23,993 nucleotides of DNA from a virus. Numbering within the stretch: the stretch's first letter is position 1; the number at the start of each line of letters is the position of its first letter. The notes below the pieces were generated by a model. The model did no database searches and had not been told where the DNA came from. It saw only the letters and a list, made by a program, of their open reading frames with translations. Positions 453-8,669 of this stretch are shown one piece after another. The DNA lies in the IMG/VR virus record IMGVR_UViG_3300009702_000085, positions 1-23,993 of that record. One strand, 5' to 3'. Both the position numbers and the translations under genes were made by a program.

Positions 453-704
453 TCATTCTGTGTACCCATCAAAATTGTAACCAACAAAAATTCCAAAAGC
501 TCCGAATAAAATGTCCATGATAGTATCTGTGTGCAAGAACCAACTGTAAATATCTGTTGTATAGGAAACTGCCTGATCAAGTTCTATTCCGATTATGATT
601 GCGACAGCCCACTGCCATTTAATCCCTGACCATTTCATCAGGATGAAGAATACCAGAAAGTGCTCAATCCAGCTTACCCAGTCTTTGTGTAGAGGAGTTA
701 TCAT
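453..704 (-). CDS. Small multi-pass membrane protein, possible holin, VanZ-like topology
   Basis: The protein has 83 residues and three hydrophobic stretches at roughly residues 12-24, 31-42 and 61-77. The segment GIELDQAVSYTT followed by DTIMDILFGAFGIFVG resembles the Glu-x-x-Gln ... Asp-x-x-x-Asn/Leu-x-x-Gly pattern of VanZ-like small membrane proteins. That resemblance is by eye only. Its ATG overlaps the TGA of the upstream exported-protein gene (ATGA), so the two are translationally coupled, and the coiled-coil membrane protein follows 33 bases downstream. By position it belongs to the lysis cassette and could be the holin. Confidence 0.55.
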   Translation of the reverse strand: MITPLHKDWVSWIEHFLVFFILMKWSGIKWQWAVAIIIGIELDQAVSYTTDIYSWFLHTDTIMDILFGAFGIFVGYNFDGYTE

Positions 705-1189
705 TTTACCACTTTCTTAATTACGACATTTGCCACATTAATAGTTTTTCTATTTTCTTTAGACAAATACATGATAAGTTCTTTTCTTACTTTCCTTTTT
801 TGCATAGTTGTAAGAGTTCCGATTTCAGCATGGATACAGGCCAAGATATTTTTCAAATGAATCTTTGTGCTGTCAACTTTTACTTTAGTCCTGTAAAGAT
901 TTGTTATCCCATCAACAAGCACCCCATTGTCGATTCTTTTGCTCATGGATTTTTTCAAAGAGTCAGCATTTATCCACCTTGGCACATATATTTCCATGCA
1001 CTTCCAATATGTTTCTATTAATCCTTCTTCATTTTTTTGATTAAATTGCTTATTATTCAGACGGATTAATGTTCCACCTTGTCGCTGCACAATGGTGTCC
1101 TGTCTGTATTTACTTTCGGAAATCCTATATTCCTGAGCAAAAACAGAAACACTAAAAGTTAGCGTAAATAATATTAATATTTTTTTCAT
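701..1189 (-). CDS. Exported protein of unknown function
   Basis: The protein has 162 residues. It begins with a clear Sec signal peptide, a Lys-Lys N-region, a hydrophobic core to about residue 16 and a likely signal peptidase I site after VFA/Q (residues 17-19). The mature part is basic and mostly helical towards the C-terminus (IGTLTTMQKRKVRKELIMYL at about 123-142). No family is recognised. AAGGTG lies upstream of the ATG. It sits between the DGR target gene and the two small membrane proteins of the lysis region. It could be a periplasmic lysis accessory, an exported anti-infection factor or a phage-borne host-type protein. Confidence 0.6.
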   Translation of the reverse strand: MKKILILFTLTFSVSVFAQEYRISESKYRQDTIVQRQGGTLIRLNNKQFNQKNEEGLIETYWKCMEIYVPRWINADSLKKSMSKRIDNGVLVDGITNLYRTKVKVDSTKIHLKNILACIHAEIGTLTTMQKRKVRKELIMYLSKENRKTINVANVVIKKVVK

Positions 1190-1243: not shown

Positions 1244-2407
1244 TTATGGCGTAAAGCAAAGGCGCGCGCCGGCAGCCGAGCCGCTATACGACGAACCGAA
1301 ATCCGCAAAAACGCAGAAAACGCCCTCCGCGCCACCGGAATTCGCAGCCCCGCCAAGCAGGTAAACACGCCAGCCTCCACTGGGATCACTATCGTAAGCA
1401 GTATAATAATAATCACACACATAAGTCGATGATGACCCACCTATCGAAGTGGGATAGAATCCATTACTAATATCCATAAAGTTTGTTTGATATCCATCCA
1501 CCTCACATAGATTTCCATATAATGTATAATTTGTTGAAATATCATCTGCATAATTTGAGTCAACACTACATAAATATAGCTTTGAGCTACTTCCATCATT
1601 GTTTATATTAACTCCATCAACAAATTGCCAAATATTACCGAAAATATCCTCTATCCCACGATAGCTCATATAATCCAGACTATCTCCATTAGTAGTCGAT
1701 TGCCCACCTGAAAAGTTTCCATCTGAATTAGATTTTCCAGTCGGCCCTATATCTGCATCATAATCCCATGCTGTAAATTTAGTATTACCCTCTGAAATTT
1801 CACTCTGAATATTTAGATTTGCGTATTCTACAAGATAAAGAATTTGAATTGCTTGTAGAGTTCTATTGTCCAATAGATGCCAGCCTGTCCCTCTATTTTC
1901 TGCCAAAGTTCTGTATTCTGCTCTGGTTTCGTTCGTATGAGGTTTTATGCCGGATATGCTACAAAGAGTATCATTTACTGTATTTGCAATATCTGCATCA
2001 TCGCCTTTATAAACTCCAGCAGATAAATCATATATTGCGGCAGGATAAGCCCCGACATAGCTTTTGCTAAACTTTGTATAACCTGGTAATTCATCTTGTG
2101 ATATTTTCCACGTATGCACACTGTCAGCATAGTGATGATAATAATAAAAGGTTGGAATTTCTACTACTACTTGGCCATCAGCTAATCCACCGGTTGTATC
2201 AATATTTGCAGGTTGATCATTTGCTTTCAAATTTGAGTTAGTTGATTTCAAATAATATTCTATATTTCCAGCATTATTTAACACACATCGCCTTAGCGCA
2301 GACTGAATTGGCAGATTAGCATCTGGTATTGTTGCACTTGCAGCACTATCGGCCAGATTACCAAGACGGGTATATGTATCTGTTTTAATATCCCAGCTAA
2401 CACCATA
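1244..2407 (-). CDS. DGR target (variable protein), C-type lectin / FGE-like fold, main segment
   Basis: The open frame from 2407 to the TAA at 1244-1246 encodes 387 residues. Near its beginning it reads YGVSWDIKTDTYTRLGN and then LPIQSALRRCVLNNAGNIEYYL, followed by VVEIPTFYYY. This is the N-terminal layout of many phage DGR variable proteins. Later come YRGIEDIFGNIWQFVDG (an FGE/CLec core motif), SGGWRVYLLGG and the terminal GARLCFTP, the classic ending of a variable region. Such proteins bind receptors or other ligands. The only standard-type start in frame is GTG 2284-2282, which would drop the conserved LPIQSALRRC block. The frame runs back to an in-frame TAG at 2410-2408 that separates it from the 92-residue segment upstream. 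The family call is strong; the true start is unresolved. Confidence 0.8.
   Translation of the reverse strand, partial: YGVSWDIKTDTYTRLGNLADSAASATIPDANLPIQSALRRCVLNNAGNIEYYLKSTNSNLKANDQPANIDTTGGLADGQVVVEIPTFYYYHHYADSVHTWKISQDELPGYTKFSKSYVGAYPAAIYDLSAGVYKGDDADIANTVNDTLCSISGIKPHTNETRAEYRTLAENRGTGWHLLDNRTLQAIQILYLVEYANLNIQSEISEGNTKFTAWDYDADIGPTGKSNSDGNFSGGQSTTNGDSLDYMSYRGIEDIFGNIWQFVDGVNINNDGSSSKLYLCSVDSNYADDISTNYTLYGNLCEVDGYQTNFMDISNGFYPTSIGGSSSTYVCDYYYTAYDSDPSGGWRVYLLGGAANSGGAEGVFCVFADFGSSYSGSAAGARLCFTP
1247..1375 (-). other. Putative DGR variable region (VR) with GC-only end tract
   Basis: The last 43 or so codons of the variable protein, from GGWRV to the stop, are strikingly GC-rich: about 79 of 120 bases at 1261-1380, in an AT-rich genome. 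The coding strand has very few adenines there, about 8 in 120 by my count. That is what adenine-to-any-base mutagenesis through a template repeat leaves behind. A run of 13 bases that are all G or C (1261-1273) lies at the end, just before CTTTGC, comparable to the GC-only tract that marks the initiation of mutagenic homology in phage BPP-1. No second copy (template repeat) is visible in the window, so the assignment rests on protein motifs and composition. Confidence 0.68.
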
Positions 2408-2410
2408 CTA
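2408..2410 (-). other. In-frame TAG joining a signal-peptide segment to the DGR target protein
   Basis: On the minus strand the text reads AAT GAT TAG TAT GGT GTT AGC TGG. The TAG is in the same frame as both the 92-residue upstream segment and the 387-residue downstream segment. There is no ATG, GTG or TTG in frame between the TAG and the conserved YGVSWD start of the downstream domain. Read as one frame with the TAG as a sense codon, 2686-1244 would encode 480 residues. It is either a true stop with unusual reinitiation, a nonsense mutation, a sequencing error or a readthrough site. Confidence 0.7.
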
Positions 2411-2686
2411 ATCATTTGAGGTTGTTACATTAGCAAATTGCCACCTTTCTGTTGAATTGTTCCATATTACTCCATATCCATCTACTTTTCCCCCTGTGGG
2501 AGGATTCGGGATAATATCGTAAGTTCCAGAACTATTCCCAGCATAGTAATTGCCGGAATAGGTATAAATCAATCCAGCTTCTGATGCACTCGTTGTATCT
2601 GATAATATGATAACTCCGCTTCCACTATGGCCATATTGTCCAAAAAGCAGAATCGGGAATAAAAGAATTAAAATCATTTTTTTCAT
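2408..2686 (-). CDS. Signal-peptide-bearing segment upstream of the DGR target, ends at TAG
   Basis: The segment has 92 residues. It opens with a Sec signal peptide (MKKMILILLFPILLFG, cleavage probably near FG/Q at 16-17) and continues with a Ser/Thr/Gly/Tyr-rich stretch (LIYTYSGNYYAGNSS) and GGKVDGYGVIWNN, a fibre-like or beta-rich sequence. CGAGGT lies 7 bases before the ATG. It ends at the TAG at 2410-2408, beyond which the DGR target continues in the same frame. It may be a small exported protein on its own, or the N-terminal part of a 480-residue exported variable protein. No independent family is recognised. Confidence 0.6.
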   Translation of the reverse strand: MKKMILILLFPILLFGQYGHSGSGVIILSDTTSASEAGLIYTYSGNYYAGNSSGTYDIIPNPPTGGKVDGYGVIWNNSTERWQFANVTTSND

Positions 2687-2691
2687 TTTAT

Positions 2692-3126
2692 TTACCTCGA
2701 AATATTCGGATAACCATCAAAATATAACTCCAGACGCGTACTGTCATTTGAAGCCCCGCCAGTCGCAATGATACGCCAATACATTCCGTTTCCAATTGCT
2801 GATTGTGTTATTTTCCAATCTGAAGTATCAGCGGCGGACAATGTCAAAGTTTTATCGGTCACGGCTAAATCCTTGGATGAATTTGTCGTTTGAAATGATA
2901 AAGTAATATCGGGAGCATCTGAGGTGGCATTCCATTTTCTAACGCCATAGTAAATAGTCATCGTTTCAAACGAACGATACCATTCCGATGTATCGGCATC
3001 GGTTGTTACTAAATCCCATTGTGCAACTCCAACACTATCTTTCTCTTGCACCTTGAAACCAGAATGCGGCCTTTGAGCAAATAGCAAAGAAGCCGAAAAG
3101 AGAATCAGAATAATTATTTTTTTCAT
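2692..3126 (-). CDS. Exported beta-rich protein of unknown function
   Basis: The protein has 144 residues. A Sec signal peptide with hydrophobic core IIILILFSASLL is followed by a probable cleavage at LFA/Q (residues 17-18). The mature part is rich in Ser, Thr and Asp with alternating hydrophobic residues (ITLSFQTTNSS, KTLTLSAADTSDW, YWRIIATGG, TRLELYFDGYP), suggesting one or two small beta-sandwich domains, as seen in phage surface or decoration proteins. CGGAGT lies before the ATG, which overlaps the TGA of the upstream gene. It is one of a run of exported products downstream of the capsid gene. A signal peptide is unusual for a virion part assembled in the cytoplasm. Confidence 0.6.
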   Translation of the reverse strand: MKKIIILILFSASLLFAQRPHSGFKVQEKDSVGVAQWDLVTTDADTSEWYRSFETMTIYYGVRKWNATSDAPDITLSFQTTNSSKDLAVTDKTLTLSAADTSDWKITQSAIGNGMYWRIIATGGASNDSTRLELYFDGYPNISR

Positions 3127-3426: not shown

Positions 3427-4299
3427 TTAGCTTACATCGGAAAGAGCATAAACGCCCCAACCGTCATTCACTTTAATTACGCCCCACTCGCCGACACAGA
3501 CCAGAGAACTATATCTGGCCTCGGCACCGGTCGAACCGCGTGCCACTTCGATTTTGAACAAGTCTTTGGTATGAAGGCCAATTGCACCGCGCTGATATAT
3601 TGCGCCTGCGGCATCGCCACCGGAGGCAACATTTTCGTCGATTTCGTTTGAAACAAACCAATCAATTCCAAAGGCATTACTTACAAAGCCCTGTGATTTC
3701 ATTGTTTCGCCAATGTCACCACTCGCGGCATTTGCATCTACAATCAAAGCACGCAAACCCTTGGAGCCCCAGTATTGTTTTGGAGAAACTACACCAACGA
3801 GATTGTTGGTATCACCATTTGCTGCCTTGATTTGCTGAATTGCACTCCAAATATCTGGTTCGGTTAAAGTTACTCCAGCGCCAGCGATTGTTTGCGAAAA
3901 ACCAGAAAACAAATTAACAATATCGTCTTCCAGCTTTGCCATCAGTGCAGAAGCAAAAAGCTGTGAACCAGCCGCAATAACGTCATCAGTCGTATAGTTA
4001 TGTGCAAGATCGGAAACGCGCGCAACGATAACTTTCTCTGTGATTGTCGCTTGATGCGCATTTGTTTCAAGATCAATCACATTTGTCGTCGCGGTTGCTT
4101 CGCCTGGAGTCTCGACATCAGAACTTGGAACCTCTGTATATGTCGGGAAATCAGCGACAAGTCCTGGCTGTCCGCTTGTGTTCTTCAGATTTACGGTATT
4201 CAAAATCCCTGCTTTGTTTTGCAGGATTAAAATTGTTTCGGCAACTATTTCTGGGACAAGTTCCGTCAGTGTCGTTGTCGTTGTTAATGTTGTAGCCAT
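3427..4299 (-). CDS. Major capsid protein, HK97-like fold
   Basis: The protein has 290 residues, a normal length for an HK97-fold capsid protein that uses a separate scaffold. After a Thr-rich start (MATTLTTTTTLTELVPEIVA) it has a beta-rich N-arm region and a helical stretch (DDVIAAGSQLFASALMAKLEDDIVNL, about residues 104-129, the spine-helix type). The block VVSPKQYWGSKGLRALIVD and the late segment FGIDWFVSNEI follow, then AIYQRGAIGLHTKDLFKIEVA and a GEWGVIKVNDGWGVY ending, all typical of this family. TGAGGT lies just before the ATG. The scaffold gene lies immediately upstream. The hairpins on both sides isolate scaffold and capsid as a separately tunable pair. Confidence 0.85.
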   Translation of the reverse strand: MATTLTTTTTLTELVPEIVAETILILQNKAGILNTVNLKNTSGQPGLVADFPTYTEVPSSDVETPGEATATTNVIDLETNAHQATITEKVIVARVSDLAHNYTTDDVIAAGSQLFASALMAKLEDDIVNLFSGFSQTIAGAGVTLTEPDIWSAIQQIKAANGDTNNLVGVVSPKQYWGSKGLRALIVDANAASGDIGETMKSQGFVSNAFGIDWFVSNEIDENVASGGDAAGAIYQRGAIGLHTKDLFKIEVARGSTGAEARYSSLVCVGEWGVIKVNDGWGVYALSDVS

Positions 4300-6217: not shown

Positions 6218-6699
6218 TATCTTTTTAAACCTCCTTTTTCTTTCTCAATAACACCCGCCGGGACCATAACACAGCGATCATTTTTCCCGCAAATTGTTGC
6301 ACCTGAACCAGGTAAACCCATTGCTTGCCATTTCTCCCAGCTTTGCGCCGGCATATTATGTCTTGCCAGGCAATCGCTGCAAATATGACTATCGTTTATT
6401 CCAAGCCAATCCCATAATTGAACATCTGCGAATTCATCTCTTATCGCTCCACGACCTGCCTGTTCAATTCCGGCCTTCATTGAGCCTTTAAGCTGTTTGC
6501 GGAAATCGCCAAATATTTGACCGCCTTTTTCCAGATCATTAAATAACATATTTTCAATTTCTTTATCAACCATGCCAGACGCTTTTGCACGTTTAATAAA
6601 TTGCGATAAGGTCAAAACTTCTTTCTGCGCTTCTTGCACCAAATATGCGACCAAAGTGATTTGCATTTCCTTCAAATATGCAGGTACTTCATCAGGCAC
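6217..6699 (-). CDS. Minor head / head morphogenesis protein, Mu gpF-like C-terminal domain
   Basis: The protein has 160 residues. A helical first half precedes the conserved block DSHICSDCLARH (residues 103-114), then the WEKWQAMGLPGSG stretch and a later CGKNDRC. The Cys107-x-x-Cys110 ... His114 ... Cys137 ... Cys143 set with Gly-x-Pro-Gly-Ser-Gly matches the C-terminal domain of phage Mu gpF-like / SPP1 gp7-like head morphogenesis proteins, minor virion proteins near the portal. It is shorter than full-length relatives (about 250 or more residues), so it may hold the core domain only. The start is GTG at 6699-6697, supported by CAGGAG about 9 bases upstream. It overlaps the upstream gene by 8 bases. 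Confidence 0.7.
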   Translation of the reverse strand: MPDEVPAYLKEMQITLVAYLVQEAQKEVLTLSQFIKRAKASGMVDKEIENMLFNDLEKGGQIFGDFRKQLKGSMKAGIEQAGRGAIRDEFADVQLWDWLGINDSHICSDCLARHNMPAQSWEKWQAMGLPGSGATICGKNDRCVMVPAGVIEKEKGGLKR

Positions 6700-7120
6700 G
6701 GCTCAACTCCTGATGTATTCGTGCCTTTGCTCTGATCATAATCTCTCGCTCTGCCTTGCTTGATATTCCCCAAAATGGTCTGGCCGGGATCGTGGCCGTT
6801 CCTTCTTGATTCCAGTGTGCTATATCAACTCTTTCAATGTGCGGGATTAATTTAGCAACTTGATAATTTCGTTGTGCTCTCGTCTTGACCATCTGGCCGG
6901 AATCCATCATAATGCCTTTTTCTTTCAGGGGATGATCAAAACCTTTTTTCTTTATCGTCGATTTTGCATTCCGCTTGAAAGCCTTGCCAAACTGTGAACC
7001 TCTTTCAATTCCTTTTTGTATATCCAAAGCAATCACATCAATACCTTCATTCAGTTCTTTGCTGAAATCAAGTTTTATATTTGCCAGATTAAAATGTTTT
7101 TCAAGTTTGACTTCGAGCAT
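6692..7120 (-). CDS. Virion morphogenesis protein, Mu gpG-like
   Basis: The protein has 142 residues. A basic middle region (RGSQFGKAFKRNAKSTIKKKG) is followed by LKEKGIMMDSGQM and near the C-terminus by EGTATIPARPFWGIS (about 106-120). The 'G-x-x-x-I-P-A-R-P-F-x-G' phrase is the signature of the phage virion morphogenesis family (Mu gpG / P2 gpS-like), which contributes to tail completion or head-tail joining. It sits between portal and gpF-like genes. The next gene (Mu gpF-like) follows with an 8-base overlap, echoing the F-G gene neighbourhood of Mu. Confidence 0.7.
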   Translation of the reverse strand: MLEVKLEKHFNLANIKLDFSKELNEGIDVIALDIQKGIERGSQFGKAFKRNAKSTIKKKGFDHPLKEKGIMMDSGQMVKTRAQRNYQVAKLIPHIERVDIAHWNQEGTATIPARPFWGISSKAEREIMIRAKARIHQELSRA

Positions 7121-7342
7121 TTATTTTAAACTCTTTGCTAAAGTTTTGCCATGTTTATTTGCATCCAAAAACAATTTATTATTTTTTTTAATGAATGTCA
7201 ATACGAACAATTTTAAATATTTGTCTGGGTTTGCAATTAATAATTTAATATCTATTTTCTTCAAATCTTCGTCAACATTCTTGTCGACTTCATCGCGAGA
7301 TTTATCCATTTCATTAAGATATTGTTTTATTCTATTTGGCAT
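7121..7342 (-). CDS. Small charged helical protein, unknown function
   Basis: The protein has 73 residues. An acidic N-terminal half (NEMDKSRDEVDKNVDEDLKK) precedes a more hydrophobic, basic helix (DKYLKLFVLTFIKKNNKLF). The ATG lies upstream of and overlaps the portal TAG stop by 11 bases, so its translation is coupled to that of the portal. Its TAA sits directly before the ATG of the gpG-like gene. No family is recognised. A portal-associated or assembly role is possible from position only. Confidence 0.5.
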   Translation of the reverse strand: MPNRIKQYLNEMDKSRDEVDKNVDEDLKKIDIKLLIANPDKYLKLFVLTFIKKNNKLFLDANKHGKTLAKSLK

Positions 7343-8669
7343 TGAATATATCCGAGATGGTCGGTTCCGTTTGCTGCGATATTTTCGTCAACTTGTTTTC
7401 TTCACCAATTTGTTTAATTTTTTCTTGAATTTGTTCATCCGTTATATCAGGATTTTGCATTCGCCAATAATCTCCGCGAGAACTCAAATTATTTTTAAAT
7501 TCAAACTCCCACTTTTTGTTTTTTTCTTCGATTGAAATCGGCATTTGAACTTCGGCATAGTCGATTCTGAATTTCTTCGCGTCGGGAACAATTAAATTAT
7601 ATTTTTTGCCGATGATTCGTTCCATTGCAAGCAAATCATACTCCCACGTTCTGCAAACTTCTTGCATATTCTCCAAGTCATCTTTGTGATCTATATTTTG
7701 CACGACCAGGGAAAAGCCTGAAGTATTTCCACTTATGCCCCAGTTTATATTCAAGCCATAATTGCGCTCAATAAGCTGCACCTGAAACTTGATAAGCTCA
7801 ACATCATCAGCAAAAGAATGATTTATATTTAAAGAACCAACCGTCGCCTGTTCGTCATCAATCGCTAAAATCTTGTTATAATTATAATGCACGTTGTCTG
7901 TCTGGCCGATCCGCCCAGTAATATAGATCGGATTAAATGCAGTATATCTATATTTATGAGCCATCTCAGACAGCATTAAACTTATATGTTCATTTGCGTT
8001 AATCAATCCATCTGCACAATTGCCGGTATTATAAAAGTCATCAATTAAAAAATCATTCGGTAACCAAACAAAAGGAATAGTTTTGTATGGATTATTTCCG
8101 AACATATCTAATTCTGTATAGCCGGCCTTACCTGGATCAACCGGCACATTATCGCTATTAATAATCAAATGAAAATCGTCAGACCAATACTCCCACAAAC
8201 GTTCATCGCCATCCTGGATTAAATATTTCAAAGCCACCGGCTTTAATCTTTCAAGATAAACCGTAAAGCTCCGCAGAATCATGTAATCAAATTGTTTTGT
8301 GCCGTTTCTTTCGATAACAACCGGACGCACCCCAATCATTCCTAAAAGGTTTGATTGCCGTTCGATTGTTTTCATTCTCATGTTTTTTAGTTGCGTCAAG
8401 GCTTCATATTTATCATTTCTTTTTTCATTGAAATATCGGATTGGTGCTTTTTTGTAAACCTCTGAAATCTTATTGATAATCTTTTTTGTAATATCTGACT
8501 CATAAAATGGGAAGTCATCCAAATCACGCAATTTCAAATATTGTTTTAAATATCGCTTTTGTTCACCATTGTAAAAATCAATCAATTTCTGCACATTTTT
8601 TAATCGTGCATTGTTTTCTTCGATTTGATATTCATTAAAATTATTGAATATAACATCTTTAGCTGTCAT
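7332..8669 (-). CDS. Portal protein
   Basis: The protein has 445 residues, a typical size for the SPP1/phi29-like portal superfamily. It begins with helices and RYLKQYLKLRDLDDFPFYESDITKKIINKISEVY (described: helix, then Pro-rich turn, then the conserved 'I-x-x-K-I-I-x-x-x-x-x-x-Y'). A long middle has IPFVWLPNDFL and a helical stem-like part (ANEHISLMLSEMAHKYRYTA, then DDLENMQEVCRTWEYDLL, about 340-357). A polar C-terminal tail (GDYWRMQNPDITDEQIQEKI) follows. It forms the DNA channel at one capsid vertex and docks the terminase. It ends in TAG; the next TAA in frame lies five codons on. It is separated from the terminase genes by the whole tail module, which is unusual. Confidence 0.8.
   Translation of the reverse strand: MTAKDVIFNNFNEYQIEENNARLKNVQKLIDFYNGEQKRYLKQYLKLRDLDDFPFYESDITKKIINKISEVYKKAPIRYFNEKRNDKYEALTQLKNMRMKTIERQSNLLGMIGVRPVVIERNGTKQFDYMILRSFTVYLERLKPVALKYLIQDGDERLWEYWSDDFHLIINSDNVPVDPGKAGYTELDMFGNNPYKTIPFVWLPNDFLIDDFYNTGNCADGLINANEHISLMLSEMAHKYRYTAFNPIYITGRIGQTDNVHYNYNKILAIDDEQATVGSLNINHSFADDVELIKFQVQLIERNYGLNINWGISGNTSGFSLVVQNIDHKDDLENMQEVCRTWEYDLLAMERIIGKKYNLIVPDAKKFRIDYAEVQMPISIEEKNKKWEFEFKNNLSSRGDYWRMQNPDITDEQIQEKIKQIGEENKLTKISQQTEPTISDIFNAK

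Follow-up and report, generated by a model that had tools for sequence, protein, structure and literature searches.

Known phage DGR variable proteins include TaqVP, encoded by a Thermus aquaticus prophage (PDB 5vf4), which combines a C-type-lectin (C-lectin) fold with a C-terminal variable region (VR). Its gene is intact, and the portion of the published account used here makes no mention of a signal peptide (PMC6328139). The PHROG 5302 domain occurs in tail or tail-collar fibre DGR proteins of crAss-like and other phages, such as MetMV and cr50_1, the latter with an RT gene close by. Exported C-lectin variable proteins are represented by Treponema TvpA and Legionella LdtA, which are bacterial lipoproteins. 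Surface display of bacterial DGR proteins of this type is cited in a 2021 global survey, which associates signal peptides with cellular targets and tail proteins with viral ones (PMC8144416). Phage DGR proteins were described as being without transmembrane regions or signal peptides in a 2018 survey that covered 92 phage-encoded DGRs (PMC6199706). In addition, the MAT chimeric fibre proteins of Bdellovibrio are phage-fibre-like, carry a signal peptide and are used outside the cytoplasm (PMC10769870), and Porphyromonas gingivalis phages encode proteins, with no function assigned, in which a Gln is predicted to follow signal-peptide cleavage according to the Bacteroidetes Q rule (PMC10367356).

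The locus described here lies in a linear viral DNA fragment of 23,993 bases, hereafter the window, and comprises the following features, all on the minus strand.

3427..4299, minus strand: major capsid protein gene (phrog_544, 1.3e-10), giving a late structural module context
2692..3126, minus strand: upstream gene of 144 aa with a signal-peptide-like start (rule of thumb), adjoining the target; 67% identical in L005
2639..2686, minus strand: Sec signal-peptide-like start MKKMILILLFPILLFG with predicted cleavage before Gln (rule of thumb; homologous start in L005)
2411..2638, minus strand: N-terminal mature segment, residues 17-92 (low confidence in the structure model; L005 is the sole relative found)
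2408..2410, minus strand: in-frame TAG, codon 93, where the C-lectin domain is predicted to begin (reading frame and first strand of the AlphaFold2 model)
1247..2407, minus strand: predicted C-type-lectin (FGE-like) DGR variable domain, 387 codons (PHROG 5302, Foldseek and AlphaFold2 model)
1247..1360, minus strand: VR, a G+C-rich 3ˊ end with approximate limits (A-column changes relative to templates of relatives)
701..1189, minus strand: downstream gene of 162 aa with a signal-peptide-like start (rule of thumb) and Gln at +1

Like TaqVP, the window protein is phage-encoded and appears to combine a C-lectin fold with a C-terminal VR. However, the two proteins are only ~15% identical, and the window protein has a predicted signal peptide. 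It shares its domain family with the proteins of cr50_1 and MetMV, but these proteins and those of S-EIV1, Freya and Versailles start without a signal peptide, and no signal-peptide version was found among the cultured phages examined. The window protein would be an exported C-lectin variable protein like TvpA and LdtA, although its gene is a phage gene, presumably late, with a predicted Sec rather than a lipoprotein start. The Bdellovibrio MAT proteins differ in being bacterial and in carrying S74 and beta-helix fibres (PMC10769870). Finally, Gln after the predicted cleavage site is common to the P. gingivalis phage proteins and three window genes, but the former, unlike the window gene, are not reported as DGR targets in PMC10367356.

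Positions 2686 to 1244 of the minus strand form a single frame whose sole break is the TAG at 2410-2408. An ATG at 2686 opens a run of 92 codons, and the TAG is followed by 387 sense codons and a TAA at 1246-1244. The initial annotation had described such a shared frame, split only by TAG, with no usable start codon between the stop and the conserved part of the variable protein and with a potential product of 480 residues. Reading the frame confirms this arrangement, and the length is correct provided that the TAG counts as one residue. Between the TAG and position 2284 there is no ATG, GTG or TTG, and the first candidate, a GTG at 2284, lies inside the conserved domain. The TAG is also unique within the window, since a scan of both strands found no other stop that is preceded by at least 90 open codons and followed by at least 200.

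When Gln is assigned to the TAG, a match to PHROG 5302 (2.5e-88) runs from residue 80, and no Pfam family is assigned to the variable protein. The PHROG 5302 sequence family is named tail protein, and membership of the window protein in the virion is putative. An AlphaFold2 model based on 35 family members has high confidence past residue 90 (pLDDT mostly >90) and places the first strand at residues 93-99, with the TAG being residue 93. The best PDB match of this model in Foldseek is TaqVP (9.5e-10), followed weakly by Mtd and TvpA, and its viral matches are tail-collar fibre proteins. Taken with the PHROG match, these comparisons point to the C-type-lectin fold with a C-terminal VR that characterizes DGR variable proteins. 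The domain downstream of the TAG retains 84% of the 79 best-conserved columns and contains no second stop and no frameshift. Its agreement with these columns places it 32nd of 35, a position that mild decay or distance alone could explain.

The initial annotation had labelled this gene a DGR target. That label is unprovable from the window alone, but it is supported by comparison with the template regions of relatives. Among columns where the templates of 13 relatives agree, the window VR is changed at 19 of 23 A columns and at 5 of 53 other columns (Fisher p 7e-10), the phage's own template being outside the record. This distribution makes it very likely that adenine mutagenesis has rewritten the window VR. 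The 24-kb fragment has no RVT_1 match to indicate an RT and no template or second VR copy, whereas an RT and a template linked to the target are both present in L001, L007 and other related loci. Because the absence of both might stem from the fragment, we file the gene as a DGR target rather than as a complete cassette, and its present-day DGR activity stays a candidate property.

The start MKKMILILLFPILLFG and the Gln that follows it are positive by our signal-peptide rule of thumb and fit the Q-rule pattern. Here and below, signal-peptide calls rely on this rule rather than on SignalP, and it also flags 12% of other ORFs. A homologue scan with the 92-residue segment alone was empty, and its one relative was found by reading the end of contig L005 (record 3300014613_000528), whose major capsid protein is 77% identical to that of the window. 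The L005 gene at the homologous place starts with MKKFIFLLFVIIFATGLFAQSGQYGHGG, and 11 of 25 residues are identical to the window segment (pair E 6e-5). It follows the 67% identical 144-aa gene and one additional signal-peptide gene, and the contig ends within it, before the TAG site. The shared start indicates that the 92-residue segment is a conserved gene start and not a chance frame. The end of this segment, DGYGVIWNNSTERW (window 2440-2480), is similar to YGVSWDIKTDTY (2370-2407), with which the lectin domain forms its first hairpin. The likeness may be a partial duplication, and we speculate that it is a recombination scar.

Genes for a terminase, a neck protein and the major capsid protein are also carried on the minus strand of the window, and a small gene, the 144-aa gene and the interrupted target follow the capsid gene in that order. 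A structure model of the 144-aa protein, built from two sequences only, is useless (pLDDT 46). Behind the capsid gene, the target is flanked by small genes with predicted Q-rule signal peptides (window 3126-2692 and 1189-701), L005 having an extra one (6535-7437), and Gln follows the predicted cleavage site in all three signal peptides of the window and in three of L005. At the other end of the window (23543-20146), the translations read as ParB-like proteins, a DNA cytosine methyltransferase, a protein that fuses ParB and methyltransferase parts, and a radical-SAM enzyme resembling spore photoproduct lyase.

A scan of viral contigs yielded 80 relatives, and a survey of their starts took in 84 loci, including a few near-duplicates. 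The N-termini are of two sorts, namely phage-fibre-like heads and signal-peptide-like starts. The closest relative by identity (L007, ~50% identical) begins with MKKLIIIAMIFIANLANAQ, which is joined to the domain within a single ORF. Overall, a signal-peptide-like start in one ORF with the domain is found for 19 of 84 targets, compared to 67 of 562 other ORFs by the same rule, a weak test (p 0.015) in which the targets were scanned over more codons. The pattern itself is more telling. An RT is encoded in the same record as the signal-peptide target in seven cases (L007, L008, L027, L046, L051, L066 and L077). Template and VR pairs in L007, L019, L027, L046, L050, L066 and L077 differ by 17-25 mismatches, all but 0-4 of which are changes from A. 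Furthermore, a separate signal-peptide gene precedes the target for 11 of 15 signal-peptide targets but for only 3 of 48 other targets. Several of the loci adjoin phage genes, with head closure by L069 (3.7e-86), a capsid gene near L007, tape measure genes near both L015 and L051, an endolysin gene also near L051, and genes of the head closure, capsid, tape measure or endolysin class around L066.

These uninterrupted relatives agree with two proposals of the initial annotation. The two window segments correspond to one gene, given that relatives carry a signal-peptide-like start and the domain in one intact ORF, and phage DGR variable proteins with such a start occur repeatedly among related viral contigs, where the ORFs are intact and templates and RTs are present. 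Sequence comparison gives good support to an exported phage DGR protein, although export itself is deduced from the predicted signal peptides. The signal-peptide targets do not form one clade. The family tree needs at least 13 label changes, at least six of them forced by well-supported branches, suggesting that gain and loss of the signal peptide recur.

Two of the related loci (L044:3776-6407 and L070:3345-6428) have genes split by small indels, while the near-identical L071:3756-6418 has an intact gene for an 887-aa signal-peptide DGR target. The indels look like sequencing errors. L044 was considered as a second split gene of the window type and was rejected, as it carries a frameshift relative to L071.

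We consider it probable that a single late gene of this phage encodes a Sec-exported DGR variable protein and that the copy in the window is interrupted by an allele-specific amber. Such a gene would encode a signal peptide, a short N-terminal segment and the C-type-lectin domain, with a C-terminal binding surface rewritten by adenine-specific mutagenic retrohoming, presumably in a phage of an FCB/Bacteroidota-group host. The amber where the lectin domain begins would be a nonsense mutation or a domain-shuffling scar at the boundary, most likely particular to this allele. Since it interrupts the gene, this copy would yield mainly a 92-residue exported fragment, presumably with loss of function. 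Aligned signal-peptide relatives have Y, S, F or W at or beside the TAG site, and because TAG differs by only one base from codons for Tyr and Trp and from the TCG codon for Ser, a single base change could have made the stop. The exact placement of the TAG, in a gene with no further break, points against an allele-specific amber, given that a random stop would fall within two codons of the domain boundary only ~1% of the time. Domain shuffling at the boundary would also account for this position. The same placement is what most favours functional read-through as put forward in the initial annotation, whereby partial reading of the amber would give mostly the short exported protein and a small amount of the full-length exported variable protein. 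The 387 intact and conserved codons past the stop, the intact VR footprint and the lack of a usable start codon for the second part are equally in keeping with it. However, when relatives were checked for a sense codon at this site, as that annotation had suggested, they had sense codons throughout the junction and conserved no stop, the relatives compared being at most ~50% identical. An in-frame stop upstream, within the locus, is present in 128 relatives, and in none of them does a stop fall at the junction behind a coding N-terminus. The only one with a stop within five codons of the domain start, L118, has just three codons preceding it. Because the closest relatives are only about half identical, their lack of the stop is still compatible with a recent, lineage-specific read-through. 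Also weighing against read-through, there is no RNA structure 3ˊ of the TAG (z 0.9) and no suppressor tRNA in the window, and the base following the TAG is U, generally a well-terminated context. Genome-wide recoding of TAG (code 15) was rejected for the same lack of a suppressor tRNA and because TAG normally terminates two other window genes, whose extensions past the stop are just 5 and 11 codons. Read-through is unproven and less likely than a broken allele, and on balance we regard it as unlikely. Decidedly unlikely is the broader proposal that some phages, many with FCB-group hosts, diversify Sec-exported late proteins rather than ordinary tail fibres and that a leaky boundary amber here sets the ratio of short to full-length product.

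Two other explanations concern the sequence itself and the start of translation. The real phage might have a sense codon at this site, and hence one intact gene, if the TAG were a sequencing or assembly error. The indels of L044 and L070 indicate that error-broken ORFs exist in the collection, and a pattern search of viral contigs with the TAG-site codon left free found no second copy of the TAG allele. The change in the window is a substitution and not an indel, however, and none of the 28 other window genes (7041 codons) is visibly broken, making an error improbable. Separate translation of the second part, either from a non-standard start after the TAG or by re-initiation at GTG 2284, would be in line with the very short N-termini of some relatives (L025 and L075) and with an AAGG ~six bases upstream of that GTG. 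Yet a protein started there would lack its first two strands as well as the LPIQSxxRRC motif, features that relatives retain, there is no nearer ATG, GTG or TTG, and the frame is identical to that of the upstream part. We judge this very unlikely.

The allele-specific amber concerns a single copy, and the main interest lies in a recurrent class of putatively exported proteins, because phage DGR proteins have been reported to lack signal peptides (PMC6199706). The seven viral records that pair a signal-peptide target with an RT nearly all have the A-mutated template pattern, and the target often follows another signal-peptide gene. Should the predicted export be real, phages would be applying mutagenic retrohoming to something outside the infected cell. 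Candidates are an adhesin on the cell surface, a factor for superinfection or receptor masking, and a fibre that virions acquire outside the cytoplasm. The display on the infected cell, not on the virion, that the initial annotation envisaged is putative.

Two further loci have distinctive arrangements. In L011 (6098-6349), the VR is accompanied by a downstream second copy in which the mismatches are never from A (0/24), unlike all other pairs, and this locus perhaps has two variable regions. A contig assigned to a Deltaproteobacteria MAG (L087:4782-8904) carries a signal-peptide gene, a signal-peptide DGR target with a fibre-like middle and an RT, and this bacterial contig may represent a prophage.
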